Source: a virus. From it: DNA of 45,407 bases. Where the stretch lies: IMG/VR virus record IMGVR_UViG_3300011114_000627, positions 1-45,407 of that record. One strand, 5' to 3'. The notes beneath the pieces are model-generated. The model searched no databases. It saw only the letters and a list, made by a program, of their open reading frames with translations, and was not told where the DNA came from. Positions 18,771 through 42,824 of this stretch are shown piece by piece. Every line of letters starts with the position of its first letter. The first letter of the stretch is position 1. The translations under genes and the position numbers were made by a program.

Positions 18771-18790
18771 CGGGCACGGATGCCCGTTTT
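18771..18790 (+). terminator. Hairpin with CGGA loop and T-run (terminator and/or CsrA site)
   Basis: CGGGCA (18771-18776) pairs perfectly with TGCCCG (18781-18786), loop CGGA, followed by TTTT: a compact intrinsic terminator for the preceding gene. The loop plus closing pair read ACGGAT, matching the A-N-GGA motif that CsrA binds in hairpin loops. A second GGA lies in the weak ribosome binding region of the next gene (18807-18809), about 29 bases away, the kind of spacing seen in dual-site CsrA repression. Confidence 0.65.
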
Positions 18791-19342: not shown

Positions 19343-19663
19343 ATGACGCAACTCGAACTCTTCGCGGCACCATGCAAGACCCGCAAACCACCAATCGCCC
19401 GGAGCACGGACCCGCAAACGTCCCACGATGCGGCGGCAACGGTCCAACTGAACGACAAGCAGTGGTCATGTATGCAGGTTCTCACCGGTGAAATGACCGC
19501 GAACGAAATCGGCCAAGCAGCGGCAACCAGGTTCAATGGCATGGCCGAAACGTATCGGAAGCGGGTCCACGAATTGCAACGGAAACAACTGATCGTCGCG
19601 TGTGGTGAACGGGTCTGCAACGTGACGGGATCGAACGCGACCATCTTCAAGCGACGAACATAA
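19343..19663 (+). CDS. Winged-helix-like DNA-binding protein, hypothetical
   Basis: A 106-residue protein, ATG 19343 with GGAGG 7 bases upstream. Residues 25-32 (DPQTSHDAA) and the later MTANEIGQAAATRF, TYRKRVHELQRKQLI and GSNATIFKRR follow the helix-turn-helix plus wing pattern of small phage proteins that resemble MarR-like or replication-organiser domains. Possibly an early transcription regulator. Short terminator-like hairpin after it. Confidence 0.55.
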   Translation: MTQLELFAAPCKTRKPPIARSTDPQTSHDAAATVQLNDKQWSCMQVLTGEMTANEIGQAAATRFNGMAETYRKRVHELQRKQLIVACGERVCNVTGSNATIFKRRT

Positions 19664-19693
19664 CCCCGCACGGAACGCGGACGCATGATGCGT

Positions 19694-19713
19694 GGCCACG
19701 GATGGCCGGTTTT
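19694..19713 (+). terminator. Second hairpin with CGGA loop and T-run
   Basis: GGCCA (19694-19698) pairs with TGGCC (19703-19707), loop CGGA, followed by GG and TTTT. It shares the 8-mer CACGGATG with the hairpin at 18771. Probable terminator for the preceding gene; the loop again reads ACGGAT as in CsrA targets. Confidence 0.5.
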
Positions 19714-19752
19714 ATAAGCCACTGAATAATTCTTACGCCGAAGGTACGCCCG

Positions 19753-20019
19753 ATGAATCCACAGCCCCCGACGAGTTCAGACGCTTCATCATTGGCCCGC
19801 GTCGAGGCGCGAGAACCGTCGGGGGCTGGTTGGTACGTCGGGCAGAATGTTCGGTGTGTGAAGCCGTGCGTCTGCTCGTGCGTTGTTCGAGGTCGGGAAT
19901 ACGTCGTTGAGCGTGTCGATGACGGCGAGTTCGGCACGTTCCTGTTTGTGCCCGGGATGCCGTACGGATTCGACCACCGACGATTCGAGCCAGTGGAGGC
20001 ACTCAATGTTCCGAAGTGA
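19753..20019 (+). CDS. Hypothetical protein
   Basis: An 88-residue protein. The first 25 residues are Pro/Ser-rich; the rest (GWYVGQNVRCVKPCVCSCVV, EYVVERVDDGEFGTFLFVPG) looks like a small SH3-like beta barrel with a Cys cluster, a shape common in tiny phage proteins. The ribosome binding site is weak (GAAGG). It overlaps the downstream membrane peptide gene in another frame. No function assigned. Confidence 0.5.
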   Translation: MNPQPPTSSDASSLARVEAREPSGAGWYVGQNVRCVKPCVCSCVVRGREYVVERVDDGEFGTFLFVPGMPYGFDHRRFEPVEALNVPK

Positions 20020-20469: not shown

Positions 20470-20487
20470 CCAAGGAAGGTGACGAAC

Positions 20488-20751
20488 ATGAACGGCAATT
20501 TGGCAATCACACGCAAGGCAGGCGAATCATTCGTGATCGAAGTCGGCCAAGAAACAATCGAGGTCGAAGTGGTTCGCATCGGTCCGAATTCGGCACGGCT
20601 GCGAGTCAGCGCACCGAAGCACATGAACATCCGACGGGGTGAACTGCCACCGATTGAAATGGGTGTTCTCGGCAGTCACATCGGCGACCCGGAAGCGTTG
20701 TCAAAGGCGGCACTGGCAGTGAAGGACGAACAGCGGAACAAGGCGAACTAA
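20488..20751 (+). CDS. csrA: CsrA-family translational regulator
   Basis: An 87-residue protein with the CsrA core at residues 4-53: LAITRKAGESFVIE, then VRIGPNSARLRVSAPKH and NIRRGE, matching the LTRKxGE, RLGIxAPk and vHReE blocks. CsrA dimers bind GGA in mRNA hairpin loops, often over ribosome binding sites. The chain is longer than the usual 55-70 residues; the extra C-terminus (PPIEMGVLGSHIG...) is charged. ATG 20488 is preferred (AAGGAAGG 8 bases upstream); a GTG at 20479 is possible. Likely to regulate phage messages, host messages, or both. Confidence 0.88.
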   Translation: MNGNLAITRKAGESFVIEVGQETIEVEVVRIGPNSARLRVSAPKHMNIRRGELPPIEMGVLGSHIGDPEALSKAALAVKDEQRNKAN

Positions 20752-29082: not shown

Positions 29083-29901
29083 ATGGTTTACGACAAGGAC
29101 GGCATCCAACTGATTTGCGGCGACAACTGCGAGACGATGCTGGCGATGACACCGGCTTCGATTGACCTTGTTGTCACGTCGCCACCCTACGACGACCTGC
29201 GAACGTATGGCGGGCACTCGTGGGACTTCTACGGAGTGGCGTGGAACCTGAAACGGTTGCTCAAGCCGGGCGGGGTGATTGTGTGCAACGTCAATGACGC
29301 CACCAAGGACGGCAGCGAAACTGGTAGCAGTGCCGATCAGGCGAAGTTCTTTCGGCGAATCGGACTTCGACAGCATGACACGATGATCTACGCGAAAAAA
29401 GGATTCAGCTTCCCGGACTCGACGAGGTATCATCAAGTCTGGGAGTATATGTACATCTTCGCCAATGGCGAACCAACCTCGTTTAACCCTATTTGCGACA
29501 GGGCGAATGAAACGGGCGGCAAACCACTCGGAGGCGATTACAAGCGAGATGCCGATGGCCGATCTGTTATGCGACCCGGAAGTGGCGATCGCGGTGTGCG
29601 GCGCGAAATGGGCCAGAGATTCAATATTTGGACATATTCGGCGGGGTGCGGACAGAGTTCTTTGGATGCCGTCGCATTCAACCACCCGGCCATCTTCCCC
29701 GAGGATCTAGCCCGCGACCACATCCTAAGCTGGTCCAACGAAGGCGACATCGTGCTTGACCCGTTCAGCGGATCTGGCACCACGATGAAGATGGCACGCG
29801 AAACCGGACGGCGCGGCATCGGCATCGAGATAAACCGCGAATACTGCGACATAGCAATCAAGAGGCTGGAGCAGAGATTGCTGTTCGGAGTTGAGTCGTA
29901 A
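29083..29901 (+). CDS. Site-specific DNA methyltransferase (N4/N6 family), no. 3
   Basis: A 272-residue, apparently intact enzyme: motif IV TSPPY at 32-36 (N4-cytosine-like), motif X-like HPAIFPEDLARDHI at 201-214, and motif I DPFSGSGTT at 226-234. ATG 29083 has AAGGA 7 bases upstream. It stands alone, without zinc-ribbon or restriction partner. It probably modifies phage DNA against host restriction. Confidence 0.9.
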   Translation: MVYDKDGIQLICGDNCETMLAMTPASIDLVVTSPPYDDLRTYGGHSWDFYGVAWNLKRLLKPGGVIVCNVNDATKDGSETGSSADQAKFFRRIGLRQHDTMIYAKKGFSFPDSTRYHQVWEYMYIFANGEPTSFNPICDRANETGGKPLGGDYKRDADGRSVMRPGSGDRGVRREMGQRFNIWTYSAGCGQSSLDAVAFNHPAIFPEDLARDHILSWSNEGDIVLDPFSGSGTTMKMARETGRRGIGIEINREYCDIAIKRLEQRLLFGVES

Positions 29902-30179
29902 ATTTGTTATGTCGGCATCGAATATAGACTTGTGCGAATTCCGTAAATAAGTGGGATAACTGGCGCGAAACTGGGGTTGATTGTGGAAGCGACCTTTGGA
30001 CAATCGATTGCGTCGGAAGTGATGAGCCGACAAGATAAACACGCCTTCCAAGAAGCGGAACCGGAGTTCCGTGCGTCGTTTATCCGCACGGTTTCACCAG
30101 CGACTCATCATCGCCCCGCTTTTTGGAAGGCGTTTTCGTTTTACAGGGGAAGCGAAAACGTCAGAACGGAGTCGTTCTG
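29902..30179 (+). promoter_or_regulatory. Non-coding leader upstream of the replication gene
   Basis: A 278-base gap without a credible gene. The first 90 bases are relatively AT-rich and could hold a promoter, though I find no clear pair of boxes. The last 140 bases are densely base-paired (next entry). Position just before the initiator gene also allows an origin-related function. Confidence 0.6.
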
Positions 30180-30182
30180 ATG
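30042..30182 (+). promoter_or_regulatory. Structured 5' leader of the replication gene
   Basis: P1: 30042-30058 pairs with 30116-30132 over 17 bases (one G-U). Inside, P2: CCGTGCG (30069-30075) with CGCACGG (30085-30091); an alternative hairpin CGGAAC/GTTCCG (30056-30061 with 30066-30071, loop CGGA) excludes parts of P1 and P2. P3: CGTTTTCG (30131-30138) with CGAAAACG (30153-30160), loop with a GGGGA. P4 abuts it: TCAGAACG (30161-30168) with CGTTCTGA (30173-30180), loop GAGT. The ribosome binding GGAG is in P4's tip and the A of the AUG (30180) is its last paired base, so P4 should block initiation unless opened or bound. Confidence 0.65.
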
Positions 30183-31133
30183 GCTGGCGACTGGATAAAA
30201 ATGCGAGCGGGATTGCTGACCCACCCCAAGGTTATTGGCATGGTAAACCACCTTGCCACCGATCCCGCGTTCTTCAACTTTATCTGTCAGGATGACATCA
30301 CTGGCGGCGACCTTGGCGGGTTTAATCCTGACCCAAAATCCGTAACGGATATCGTAACGCGACAGGCGTTACGCGCCGTTACGGTGTGTGGATTACTGTC
30401 GTTATGGTCGGCTGCTCGCCAGCACTCAGATTCAGGGGTTCTGACCGGATTGACCGTGGATGACCTTGACGAAATGGCAGGTGTGCCAGGGTTCGGGCGA
30501 GCCATGCACAAGGTTGGTTGGGCTGTTGCGGACGAGCATCATAACTCCATAGTGCTACCGAACTTTACGGAATGGAATGATCAGTCACATAAGGGACCGA
30601 CACAGACTAATGCGGAGCGGCAAAAGGCGTTTCGGGAACGACAAAAGAGCCGTAACGAAACCGTAACGAAAAGTAACGTAGAGGAGAGTAGAGGAGAGGA
30701 GAGTAGAGGAGAGAGTAAAGAAGAGTCCGCACGCAGGGATGAAAAGACATTCCTGACAGGACCGTCTGAAGACTTCGACAAGTGGTGGAACACGTATCCC
30801 TGTCGGTCGGCAAAATCGGATGCGTGGAAGGCGTGGCAGGCGGCTGTGGTCACAATCGCATCTGAGCGTGGCATTGACGACGCAGCGTCAATTGCTTGGC
30901 TACTTGGCCGAACCAGGGACTACCGCGATTCAGCGGCCGGGCGAGATCCAGTGAGCGGCGGCGACTTTCGGCCCGCTCCCGCCAAATGGCTGTCATCCGG
31001 GAAGTATGACGACGATCTGAAGGAATGGGCGAAACCGAACGGGGACGCACCGAAGGGTGCCAAGACCAAGCCAAAACTCCCACCGCTGCCACAAAAGGCC
31101 ACTGCGGCGATTCAAGGAATGATGAATGACTGA
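30180..31133 (+). CDS. Replication initiator / replisome organiser
   Basis: A 317-residue protein. The N-terminal 120 residues (GDWIKMRAGLLTHPKV, ATDPAFFNFIC, VDDLDEMAGVPGFG) form a winged-helix DNA-binding domain like those of phage O/DnaD-type initiators. A highly charged linker (about residues 150-185, rich in EESRGE) follows, then DFDKWWNTYPCRSAKSDAWKAW, the WWxxYP motif common to phage replication proteins. It is followed by DnaB with an 8-base overlap, the usual initiator-helicase pairing. ATG 30180 is chosen because GGAG lies 8 bases upstream; iterons lie within its coding sequence as in lambda O. Confidence 0.8.
   Translation: MAGDWIKMRAGLLTHPKVIGMVNHLATDPAFFNFICQDDITGGDLGGFNPDPKSVTDIVTRQALRAVTVCGLLSLWSAARQHSDSGVLTGLTVDDLDEMAGVPGFGRAMHKVGWAVADEHHNSIVLPNFTEWNDQSHKGPTQTNAERQKAFRERQKSRNETVTKSNVEESRGEESRGESKEESARRDEKTFLTGPSEDFDKWWNTYPCRSAKSDAWKAWQAAVVTIASERGIDDAASIAWLLGRTRDYRDSAAGRDPVSGGDFRPAPAKWLSSGKYDDDLKEWAKPNGDAPKGAKTKPKLPPLPQKATAAIQGMMND
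30340..30384 (+). other. Nested dyad of four CGTWACG motifs (candidate origin/operator)
   Basis: Within the initiator gene, CCGTAACGG (30340-30348) and CGTAACGC (30353-30360) are mirrored by GCGTTACG (30366-30373) and CCGTTACGG (30376-30384). Both pairs are exact reverse complements around one centre near 30363. Spacing between like motifs is 10-12 bases, about one helix turn, as for cooperative initiator binding. Confidence 0.65.
30650..30682 (+). repeat. Three 11-bp direct iterons
   Basis: CCGTAACGAAA at 30650 and again at 30661, then AGTAACGTAGA at 30672. They share the GTAACG core with the upstream dyad and repeat at one helical turn. 11 is not a multiple of 3, so the repeat is not a protein-level one. 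Confidence 0.7.
30681..30725 (+). repeat. Nine purine-rich pentamers beside the iterons
   Basis: From 30681 in strict 5-base register: GAGGA, GAGTA, GAGGA, GAGGA, GAGTA, GAGGA, GAGAG, TAAAG, AAGAG. It encodes part of the charged EESRGE linker. The purine strand could form an unusual duplex or an unwinding element next to the iterons. Confidence 0.75.
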
Positions 31134-32415
31134 CTCGAAACTCCCGCCACAGAACCTGACAGCCGAACGTAGCGTTCTGGCGTGCCAGATTCTCGACGCG
31201 ACCACGATTGACGCCGTGCGGGACATCATCGCCCCGACGGACTTCTACGCCGATATCCATACGATCATCCAGCGGGCAATCCTGAAGCTGCGGGACTCAG
31301 GCGTCGAGGCCGATACCGTCACGCTGTCGGAGCAATTAGAGGCCACAGGAGCACTACAGGACATCGGGGGCGTGCCGTACATCCTGGAGATTCTGGAATC
31401 GGTTCCACACACCGCCCACGCGAAGCATTACGCCGGGATCGTGGCCAAGTGTGCCAAGCGTCGAAAGCAGATCGTCATTGCCCAACGGTTGATGGAATCG
31501 GCCTATGACTCGACGGCGGATCATGACGAAATGAGCGAGGCGGCAATGAAGGCCGCGACCGAACTTGCAGACACGACACCGGTCGGCAATCTGCGGCTGA
31601 TGACTGGTGCCGTCGAGGAACTGATTGCCGATTTTGAAAAGGGCGTCACTCCTGCTGTGCGGGTAATGATTCCGGCTGTCGACGCGGCAACGGGCGGCGC
31701 GTGTCCAGGTGAAATGATTATTGTCGGTGCCAGACCGTCCCACGGCAAAAGTCTATTCGCTCTCCAGACACTGGACTGTGCCGCGTACAACGGATGGCCC
31801 GGTCTGATTATCTCCGAGGAAATGGCGGCACTGAGCCTTGCGGGGCGAATGCTGTCATCTATCACGACCCTCCCATCGTCGGACTGGTTACGCGAAACCC
31901 ATCGGCTACGGTTCGACGTGAAGGAACATTTCAACGGTCGGGCACCGATTGTCATTGCGGAAAAGTGTGCCACGGCGACAGGTGCCGAACGAGCCATCGC
32001 AACATCGGTGCGCCAGTATGGCGTCAAGATCGTGGCGGTGGACTATGCCCAACTGCTGAAGGGGACTGGCGACAACGAACAGGAACGCATCGGGGACGTG
32101 TCTCAACGCATGAAAGCGATGGCCACGCGGTACGACCTGATCGTACTGCTGCTGGCCCAACTCAATCGCGGCATCGAATCGCGGGACAACGGGGAACCAG
32201 GACTTGCCGACCTACGAGGGTCCGGCAGTTTGGAACAGGACGCGGATATCGTTTTGTTTCCGTTGTGGCCACACAAACTGAACTCCGACCACGACCCACG
32301 AGAGTATCGCATCTATCAGCGAAAGAACCGAAATCGGGGAATTGGCGAGGCGGTGATCGGAATGCGAATCAACCCCGAACGGCAGCGGCTGGAGGAGGTA
32401 GGAACGGAATGGTAA
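31126..32415 (+). CDS. dnaB: Replicative DNA helicase, DnaB family
   Basis: A 429-residue hexameric 5'-3' fork helicase. The N-terminal DnaB domain spans residues 8-110 (ERSVLACQIL, GGVPYILEILESVP); the RecA-like ATPase has Walker A GARPSHGKS at 201-209, Walker B VAVDYAQLL with D306, and LADLRGSGSLEQDADIVLF followed by KNRNRGIGE near the C-terminus. Length is close to cellular DnaB. Overlaps the initiator gene by 8 bases; no loader is seen, so the initiator may load it. Confidence 0.95.
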   Translation: MTDSKLPPQNLTAERSVLACQILDATTIDAVRDIIAPTDFYADIHTIIQRAILKLRDSGVEADTVTLSEQLEATGALQDIGGVPYILEILESVPHTAHAKHYAGIVAKCAKRRKQIVIAQRLMESAYDSTADHDEMSEAAMKAATELADTTPVGNLRLMTGAVEELIADFEKGVTPAVRVMIPAVDAATGGACPGEMIIVGARPSHGKSLFALQTLDCAAYNGWPGLIISEEMAALSLAGRMLSSITTLPSSDWLRETHRLRFDVKEHFNGRAPIVIAEKCATATGAERAIATSVRQYGVKIVAVDYAQLLKGTGDNEQERIGDVSQRMKAMATRYDLIVLLLAQLNRGIESRDNGEPGLADLRGSGSLEQDADIVLFPLWPHKLNSDHDPREYRIYQRKNRNRGIGEAVIGMRINPERQRLEEVGTEW

Positions 32416-40760: not shown

Positions 40761-40925
40761 GTGAATCTGGGTGGGGCACCGATTGATCCTGGGACCGTCA
40801 TAGCGATCGGTGCCTCACTCGGTTTTACAAACGGACTGACGGCAAATCATGGTGACGAATTACGACCTGACCCAGTGGCGATGGTGGCTGATGCTCGTGA
40901 TGAGCACGCTAGGCGAAAGGGTTAA
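40761..40925 (+). CDS. Small hypothetical protein
   Basis: A 54-residue open frame from GTG 40761 to TAA 40925, ending just before the tail fibre start. Sequence VNLGGAPIDPGTVIAIGASL then a charged tail (DEHARRKG). No good ribosome binding site, and an in-frame TAG lies immediately upstream, so the support is mainly that the frame is open in an otherwise gene-dense strand. Confidence 0.4.
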   Translation: MNLGGAPIDPGTVIAIGASLGFTNGLTANHGDELRPDPVAMVADARDEHARRKG

Positions 40926-40928
40926 ATA

Positions 40929-42824
40929 ATGGCTTTTGCAAATCCAGTCGCCTACGTCAACTACGGCAATGGCACAAACACGGGGTACTATGCTATCACT
41001 GTATGGTCCACTGGGGCCACCATTGCCGCAGGTGCGTATCGTCGCCAGACTGCTCCTGCTGTTAACTCTGAGAGAATCTTTGTTTGCATAGTGGCTGGGA
41101 CTACTCACGCAACAACCGAACCGACTTGGACAACAACGGTTGGAGCGAAGACCACTGACAACACTGTTACATGGCAGGAGTGTACCGGACAACCTGGATC
41201 TAATGGTGACGCCACCAACACCCCAAACTCGACAGCCTACCGCAGCAGAGTGATTGCACTGGGCGAGACTATACAAGATGGAACCAACGTCTTCATCTGC
41301 TCAACTGCGGGAACAACGGGAGCAGGTGCTCCGAGTTTCAATACCACAGCAGGGAATACAACAGTAGACAATACTGCGACGTGGACCTGCATTGGTACGC
41401 TTGCCAGTAAGGTGGCGAATGGATTTGGTTGTCCTCTTGCTAGACTTCAAACCGCAGTCGCGACTAGCTGGTCGCCCGCAGCCGGTATCAATACAATCTT
41501 TGTCTCGTCTAATCACTCCGAGACTCAGTCAACAGCTATGGCAGTGTCCCCCGCCGCAGTATCTTCAACTGAGTTATTGATAATCTCGGTTACAGACACG
41601 GCAACCCCGCCAACTTCCTACGCAAGCGGTGCCTCAATTGCGACAACAGGCGTAAGCAATATCACTCTTGCCGGTGGAGCCATTGCTTACGAGGGTCTTA
41701 CGTTCAAAGCAGGAAGCGGCTCAAGCACGGGGACTATTTCCATCACTGGGGGCACTAACGCGGGTTCCTTTAGGTTCAAATCCTGCACGATCCAAACAAC
41801 CAACACGTCAGTCTCGTCAACAATTACGCTAGGAGCATCGTCAGCAGCCCCCCCGTTAGAGTTTACTAACTGTACTTTTAATTTCGGAGCAACACAACAT
41901 TCAATCAGAGTCAATAGTGGGCGGATGTTGTTAAACAACCTGACGCTGGCTGGATCTACTCCAGGAACCCTATTTGGGTCTACGACTGGCGGTGCCCCAA
42001 GCGTTGAGTTTGCAAATTCAGACTTGAGTGCCATAACCGGGTCATTGGTGACACTCTCAAATTCTACGGATCAATGGTTCCTGTTTCGCAACTGTCGATT
42101 GGGTGTTGGTGTTTCTATGACTACTGGAACTCGCACAGGTCCGGGCATAGCAGTCGTAGAGTTTGTGAACTGCGACACATCCGCCAACAACACCAACTAC
42201 CGATATGCAAAGGCAACATACACAGTCAGTAGCCAAACGACACAGACTGAGACAACTCTAATCAAGTCAGGAGGAAGCTCAGACGGGACAACTCCATACA
42301 GTCGCAAGATCGTCACAAATGCCGATTGCTCAACACGATTCCCTTATGAAATGGCTCCAATTTACGTGTGGGTCAACACGACGGGAGCAGCCATCACTCC
42401 CGCAATTGCTATCTTGAACGACGGAGCGACTCTAACGAATGCAGACATCTGGTGCGAAGCCGAATACTTGGGGTCATCAAGTTCCCCGCTGGGTAGTATT
42501 GCCACTGATGGTCTGGCAAACTCGCTGTCGACCGCAGCGAATCAACCAACGGACTCAACGTCGACATGGACCACAACGGGGATGGCAAGTCCAGTAAAGC
42601 AAACCATCGGCCCTGCATTTACAAATCAGAAAGCTGGACTTGTCAAACTCACGGTGAAAATCGGAAAGCCGTCGCTGACGGTGTATGTGGATCAGCTGCC
42701 AACTGGTCTTGGGTTCACATCGGCGCGACAATACCAAGCCCCCGGATTCACAATGAATGAGGGCGCGTCAGGCGGTGGACCAGTCGCGGCACGAACAATA
42801 ATCACAAACATTGGAGCATACTGA
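40929..42824 (+). CDS. Tail fibre / receptor-binding protein with beta-helix
   Basis: A 631-residue Thr/Ser/Asn/Gly-rich protein. Two similar N-terminal modules (about 48-92 and 118-155), each with VF(I/V)C, AGTT, TxDNTxTW and a closing CxG, resemble small carbohydrate-binding units in phage tail proteins. Residues about 225-420 alternate short strands and Asn/Cys ladders (FRFKSCTI, LEFTNCTF, VEFANSDL, WFLFRNC), a right-handed parallel beta-helix as in fibres and depolymerases. Its codons are richer in A and T at third positions than those of neighbours, suggesting recent gain. Likely host-recognition protein. Confidence 0.75.
   Translation: MAFANPVAYVNYGNGTNTGYYAITVWSTGATIAAGAYRRQTAPAVNSERIFVCIVAGTTHATTEPTWTTTVGAKTTDNTVTWQECTGQPGSNGDATNTPNSTAYRSRVIALGETIQDGTNVFICSTAGTTGAGAPSFNTTAGNTTVDNTATWTCIGTLASKVANGFGCPLARLQTAVATSWSPAAGINTIFVSSNHSETQSTAMAVSPAAVSSTELLIISVTDTATPPTSYASGASIATTGVSNITLAGGAIAYEGLTFKAGSGSSTGTISITGGTNAGSFRFKSCTIQTTNTSVSSTITLGASSAAPPLEFTNCTFNFGATQHSIRVNSGRMLLNNLTLAGSTPGTLFGSTTGGAPSVEFANSDLSAITGSLVTLSNSTDQWFLFRNCRLGVGVSMTTGTRTGPGIAVVEFVNCDTSANNTNYRYAKATYTVSSQTTQTETTLIKSGGSSDGTTPYSRKIVTNADCSTRFPYEMAPIYVWVNTTGAAITPAIAILNDGATLTNADIWCEAEYLGSSSSPLGSIATDGLANSLSTAANQPTDSTSTWTTTGMASPVKQTIGPAFTNQKAGLVKLTVKIGKPSLTVYVDQLPTGLGFTSARQYQAPGFTMNEGASGGGPVAARTIITNIGAY

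Follow-up and report, generated by a model that had tools for sequence, protein, structure and literature searches.

A structured leader with a stop-start overlap as a candidate translational coupling element of a phage replication initiator gene

The DNA analyzed here, a linear virus record of 45,407 bases (the window), belongs to a tailed phage. Its left part holds the genes for terminase, portal, head protease and tape measure, and methyltransferase and helicase genes in the middle are followed by a replication initiation protein gene (rep, 30180-31133, plus strand) and by a gene for a DnaB-like replicative helicase (31126-32415, plus strand; PF03796, E 1.9e-42), which overlaps the end of rep. 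The rep product has no Pfam match and is not of the plasmid RepA/RepZ type; it instead matches phage families, phrog_2509 (E 6.3e-34) and others. The leader studied here occupies the gap between the end of a methyltransferase gene (29901) and rep. None of 4227 Rfam families reached its gathering threshold anywhere in the window, and assignment of the leader to an Rfam family was therefore rejected. A scan of 29700-30400 for sigma-70-like promoters found none on either strand.

For comparison, we used the best 80 of at least 562 rep relatives confirmed in viral contigs, which are at most 44% identical to this rep. After duplicates were dropped among these 80 loci, 60 remained for the coupling count, 58 as leaders of the full 141 nt, 55 for the comparison of opening costs and hairpins, and 55 as rep genes of at least 600 nt for the analysis of repeats. 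The 45-46 other gene starts of the same phage and 29 training genes were picked from the list of open reading frames and are assumed to be genes.

The region 30030-30200 folds at -70.5 kcal/mol, compared with -48.8 kcal/mol in dinucleotide shuffles (z -5.6), and none of 200 shuffles was as strong. This comparison had been named as a check in a preliminary description of this DNA, and its outcome agrees with the strong folding described there. The z-score of the leader (-6.15) is an outlier both to the 58 distinct related leaders from the best 80 of at least 562 relatives (mean 0.25, sd 1.01, minimum -2.75) and to 45 other assumed starts of the same phage (minimum -2.63). Chance was thus rejected as an explanation, and the leader structure is real, lying far outside what shuffles and comparable starts produce. 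By GC-adjusted energy, the leader is beaten by a single one of 6467 sliding 141-nt windows (at 19727), and a few windows near 19720-19748 are also lower in raw energy.

The fold is built around an outer stem of 18 pairs (30041-30058 with 30116-30133, plus strand), which corresponds to the 17-bp stem noticed before when counted from 30042. It contains one G-U pair, has pair probabilities of at least 0.96 (rounded) from 30042 onward, and tops the window's list of inverted repeats spaced by at most 90 nt. According to fold and pair probabilities, it encloses an inner hairpin of 7 pairs with a 9-nt loop (30069-30091) and a second one of 4 pairs (30100-30114). Mutually exclusive inner partners, also claimed earlier, were recovered as well, since an alternative inner hairpin, GCGGAACCGGAGTTCCGT (30055-30072, 7 pairs, -8.6 kcal/mol), competes with both the top of the outer stem and the 30069-30091 hairpin. 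Two abutting hairpins then lead into the rep start in the fold, as had been described: hairpin 2 (30134-30157), with 9 pairs, the hexaloop ACAGGG and pair probabilities of about 0.63-0.78, and hairpin 3 (30159-30182), with 10 pairs, pair probabilities of at least 0.95, GGAG at its tip and UGAUG in its 3' arm.

Of this GGAG, the first G (30168) takes part in the stem and the remaining GAG lies in the tetraloop. The A of the rep AUG is not the final paired base, as the stem continues through the U and G of the start codon. Both details differ slightly from the preliminary description. Only 2 of 741 plus-strand ATGs in the window are covered by a hairpin of at least 10 pairs. The longest hairpin over a start has 7 pairs at 45 other assumed gene starts and 6 pairs at 55 distinct related rep starts (from the best 80 of at least 562), compared with 10 at rep, and hairpin 3 is the second longest SD-loop hairpin among 3446 distinct TRATG sites in 943 kb. 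Opening the region from -15 to +3 at the rep start costs 10.3 kcal/mol, compared with a mean of 9.4 (sd 2.5) at the 55 related rep starts, again from the best 80 of at least 562, and of 7.3 (sd 2.8) at 46 other window starts; 225 of 741 window ATGs cost as much or more. Hairpin 3 is therefore exceptionally neat, in agreement with the view of a neatly enclosed start, but opening the rep start takes no exceptional amount of energy, and in this sense the start is not buried.

Overlooked in the preliminary description was a candidate leader ORF on the plus strand (29983-30180), indicated by its open frame, an SD sequence and its codon score. It comprises 65 codons from GTG 29983 or, alternatively, 52 codons from ATG 30022, and its stop codon TGA (30178-30180) overlaps the rep ATG by one base, forming the sequence UGAUG (30178-30182) within hairpin 3. 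A total of 77 open codons precede this TGA, and 5.3% of 20000 dinucleotide shuffles stay open for as long. With an anti-SD sequence that we took to be the appropriate one, the SD duplex at GTG 29983 amounts to -5.4 kcal/mol, similar to the dnaB start. The codon score of the leader frame is 0.026 per codon from 29983 and -0.004 from 30022; this is closer to the mean of genes (0.100, sd 0.065) than to that of open out-of-frame stretches (-0.144, sd 0.066), both reference distributions being built on 52-codon stretches. Of the open out-of-frame stretches, 3.5% score above the frame from 30022. However, 30% of open antisense stretches beat the leader frame, and a synonymous codon score is non-discriminating, with 25% of open out-of-frame stretches scoring at least as high as the leader frame. 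Searches revealed no homologue of the leader frame. On balance, we judge that the frame is probably translated.

Conservation analysis showed that a stop codon overlaps the rep ATG in 38 of 60 distinct relatives, and that 34 of the 60 combine this overlap with an upstream frame open for at least 45 codons (both from the best 80 of at least 562), indicating that coupling to an upstream frame looks usual for rep. A TRATG context is found at just 85 of 743 plus-strand ATGs in the window. The relatives with overlapping stop and start, among the best 80 of at least 562, are without the hairpin, which suggests that the hairpin is dispensable for coupling in this rep family.

The leader itself has no relative detected by our scans of IMG/VR, GTDB genomes, and phage and plasmid collections. 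Leaders of the best rep relatives (57 of the best 80 of at least 562) are unrelated to it, and blastn with word size 7 across the rep-relative loci gave no leader match. Pattern searches at the DNA level returned 13 matches to a stem arm in viral contigs, none with the second arm nearby, no match to hairpin 2 or hairpin 3 in viral contigs, and none to the whole stem in genomes. Leader DNA matched nothing among plasmids and gave one chance-level match among phages (E 0.9). Nine loci found via the capsid (best-segment identity 59-87%), most of them on fragmentary records, gave no rep-module match, and rep searched minus its N-terminus has no relative in genomes and one weak relative in viral contigs.

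The second feature missing from the earlier account is a T tail. The 3' arm of the outer stem, which can pair with itself (30117-30132), runs into TTTTCGTTTT (30133-30142), giving a terminator-like element (30117-30142, plus strand) in the terminator scan. With scoring weights that we presume to be suitable, the tail scores 3.83, compared with 3.26 for the 99.9th percentile of the window. As in intrinsic terminators, a G+C-containing stem stands directly before the T tract, and because TTTTCGTTTT lies directly at its end, the outer stem is terminator-like, except that the loop of the long form spans 57 nt instead of being short; the weak 6-pair form (-4.0 kcal/mol) alone has a 4-nt loop. The outer stem may thus also act as an attenuator. 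The window contains two stems of at least 17 pairs that carry a top-1% T tail, the leader stem and 40767-40822. The latter consists of a 19-bp stem followed by TTTTACAAA, lies upstream of a gene at 40929 and is probably a terminator.

A frame that runs through the leader and ends in UGAUG points to translational coupling, and we consider it about an even bet that the leader serves the phage's replication initiator gene as a translational coupling element. An upstream stop overlapping a downstream start, as in such elements, is present (UGAUG after 77 open codons). The 10-pair hairpin over the ribosome binding site and start may suppress independent initiation, but its opening cost of 10.3 kcal/mol is ordinary. 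In this model, the frame 29983-30180 would be translated, and ribosomes would traverse the long stem and terminate at the UGA (30178-30180), a stop codon in hairpin 3 whose A is also the first base of the rep AUG. If the leader were left untranslated, hairpin 3 would keep GGAG and AUG paired or hidden, whereas a terminating ribosome would melt the hairpin and could reinitiate at the overlapping rep AUG. A second lock probably acts on transcription: an untranslated long stem with its TTTTCGTTTT tail would favor termination before rep, and a following ribosome would prevent formation of the long stem and hence termination. Several points count against the coupling model: the leader frame has no homologue found and unremarkable antisense, synonymous-score and shuffle comparisons, the rep start is ordinary in opening cost, no promoter-like site turned up in 29700-30400, related overlaps do without the hairpin, and it would be atypical for a translated frame to contain a terminator whose loop is 57 nt long. 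In a 2025 review, hairpin unfolding by upstream ribosomes is one of two models of coupling (PMC12548453), and ribosomes are described there as also able to prevent terminator hairpins. Taken with synTCE and SGI1 (see below), the plan of hairpin 3 leads us to interpret the leader as a lock on rep that ribosomes would open. The earlier notion of a translation switch on rep thus persists as the best reading, with the leader ORF that stops on the rep AUG and the T tail now added to it.

Alternatively, the stem and TTTTCGTTTT could be a terminator or attenuator only, which ends or throttles transcription from the methyltransferase genes into rep, with the frame and UGAUG being accidental and rep made through read-through or antitermination. 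The rarity in the window of so long a stem with such a T tail agrees with this, as do four terminator-scan sites in 29700-30400 compared with 0.8 expected. Set against the 57-nt loop, and given that it leaves hairpin 3 and the stop-start overlap unexplained, we regard this explanation, including its read-through or antitermination component, as unlikely; moreover, the 37 nt downstream of the T tail offer scant space for a promoter, and none was found there. A Csr-type switch, in which phage or host CsrA would bind the hairpin 3 tip through its GGA and keep ribosomes off rep, draws on the finding that the phage carries its own CsrA homologue, a possible trans-acting partner (20479-20751, plus strand, start probably ATG 20488; phrog_9500; PF02599, 44.7 bits with a cut-off of 27, match at 20500-20646). 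A match to this frame (39% over 59 residues) is carried by phage records G003 and G009, which had come from the capsid search. When aligned by eye to what we take to be the E. coli CsrA sequence, the phage protein has an arginine at the position of R44. This residue is reported as essential in CsrA (PMC7366521). The comparison of the single phage sequence with solved CsrA chains gave a weak match (E 0.003). Among 216 candidate GGA-loop hairpins on the plus strand, those at 30159-30182 and 30055-30072 come second and fifth, and ACGGA at 30166 overlaps the SD, the consensus from SELEX being the one we assume for CsrA. This is, however, the single ANGGA in the 141 nt, where about 0.7 is expected from 231 in 45 kb, and hairpin 3 holds it in a partly paired state rather than as a free ANGGAN hexaloop. 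The leader contains no such hexaloop, and the window holds 5 canonical ones compared with 4.63 (sd 2.03) in shuffles. The earlier proposal of CsrA as a candidate is thus backed by the phage-encoded homologue, but not by the leader sites, which are non-canonical, nor by any hexaloop enrichment. Since the phage encodes a CsrA homologue, CsrA control stays a candidate, though we hold it to be quite unlikely, and equally so that CsrA perhaps binds hairpin 2 and the alternative inner hairpin as well.

Two further readings concern the DNA itself and a plasmid-like antisense RNA. The leader could be a cruciform or palindromic operator or origin element that the initiator or a repressor recognizes, given that long inverted repeats adjoin the initiator gene. 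Against this, 6 of 7 window copies of the iteron-like repeat CGTAACG/CGTTACG cluster inside rep (30341-30668, plus strand), forming a candidate origin. Among relatives from the best 80 of at least 562, 25 of 55 rep genes contain four or more copies of CGTAACG in either orientation, 20 of 55 contain four or more of a different repeat, GCGGACA, and none of 58 related leaders has a comparable structure. Those sharing repeats have rep proteins of at most 44% identity. The origin thus likely lies within the gene, as in lambda, whose ori is reported to lie in gene O (PMC6022878), and the origin within the initiator gene seems to be conserved, with a repeat that apparently changes from lineage to lineage. 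An origin at the leader, including the cruciform origin element proposed before, is accordingly disfavored though not excluded, and we consider a role of the leader as a DNA element highly improbable. Similarly improbable is control by an antisense RNA, in which the apical loop (30076-30084) would be the antisense target or form a pseudoknot with GATAAAC and govern leader-frame translation. GTTTATC in this loop (30078-30084) perfectly complements GATAAAC at 30034-30040, a seven-base match with a chance probability of about 3%, and IncF and I-complex plasmids offer an analogy (PMC10724649). Yet the scan for sigma-70-like promoters found no such site on the minus strand of 29700-30400, and since GATAAAC abuts the outer stem, both pairings together would be sterically strained. 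GATAAA is found again just within rep, at about 30194.

Near-twin hairpins lie upstream of csrA, at 18771-18786 (GGGCACGGATGCCC) and 19693-19708 (GGCCACGGATGGCC), each with an ACGGAT hexaloop and followed by a T-rich tail. They are CsrA-like loops in terminator-like hairpins and possibly serve as decoys or in autoregulation; window-wide, such CsrA-like loops are not enriched over shuffles. The region 19650-19870 is strongly folded (-104.2 kcal/mol, z -5.27, 0 of 200 shuffles) and is the only one to beat the leader by GC-adjusted energy. It includes 12-base perfect arms (19762-19773 and 19817-19828) and lies partly within an ORF at 19753-20019.

If translational coupling holds, a tailed phage meters its replication initiator by the logic of plasmids and SGI1, the onset of DNA replication would be tied to translation of the leader frame, and the leader would be a natural counterpart of the hairpin plan engineered for synthetic coupling. 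It also represents a concrete candidate target for the phage-encoded CsrA. We consider it very unlikely that a double lock operates, in which leader translation lifts an intragenic terminator and opens the stop-start hairpin while the phage CsrA grips the hairpin tip; a tailed phage would then have a plasmid-style copy-number switch together with an RNA-binding regulator of its own. Searching the literature for hairpins that couple translation at phage replication genes gave general papers, and searching for phage replication-gene leaders gave none on such a gene among the matches listed, which is no proof of absence from print. Coupling elements are known as a kind, and an instance in a phage initiator gene appears to be new.

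In the IncFII tap-repA and I-complex repY-repZ systems, a structured leader and a leader frame control the replication initiator. The phage locus appears to share this arrangement, but the scan for sigma-70-like promoters gave no sign of an antisense RNA, and a pseudoknot would be hypothetical. Like the CsrA/RsmA mRNA targets described in PMC7366521, it presents GGA at a hairpin tip over the SD, here with csrA in the same phage, but the motif is partly paired and there is no ANGGAN hexaloop. The engineered synTCE elements described in PMC11602170 have a stem of at least 6 bp, the ribosome binding site in the loop and an overlapping URAUG, as does hairpin 3. For these elements, stems of at least 6 bp are reported to strongly inhibit leaky initiation, and coupling to work very well at stop-to-start distances of -1 to 5 bases (PMC11602170). 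They are designed and have a larger, purine-rich loop, whereas the phage hairpin is natural with a four-base loop. In the IncN2/N3-like replicon of Salmonella genomic island 1 (SGI1), S004 is reported to overlap repA inside an inverted repeat that masks the SD and start, and an early stop in S004 to prevent RepA expression (PMC7826253). Both loci have a leader frame that overlaps an initiator gene within an inverted repeat over the SD and start. According to that report, coupling is proven in SGI1 and the last four S004 codons overlap repA, in contrast to the candidate coupling read from sequence and the one-base overlap (UGAUG) seen here (PMC7826253). The phage locus further differs from SGI1 in combining an initiator of a phage family with an additional terminator-like stem.
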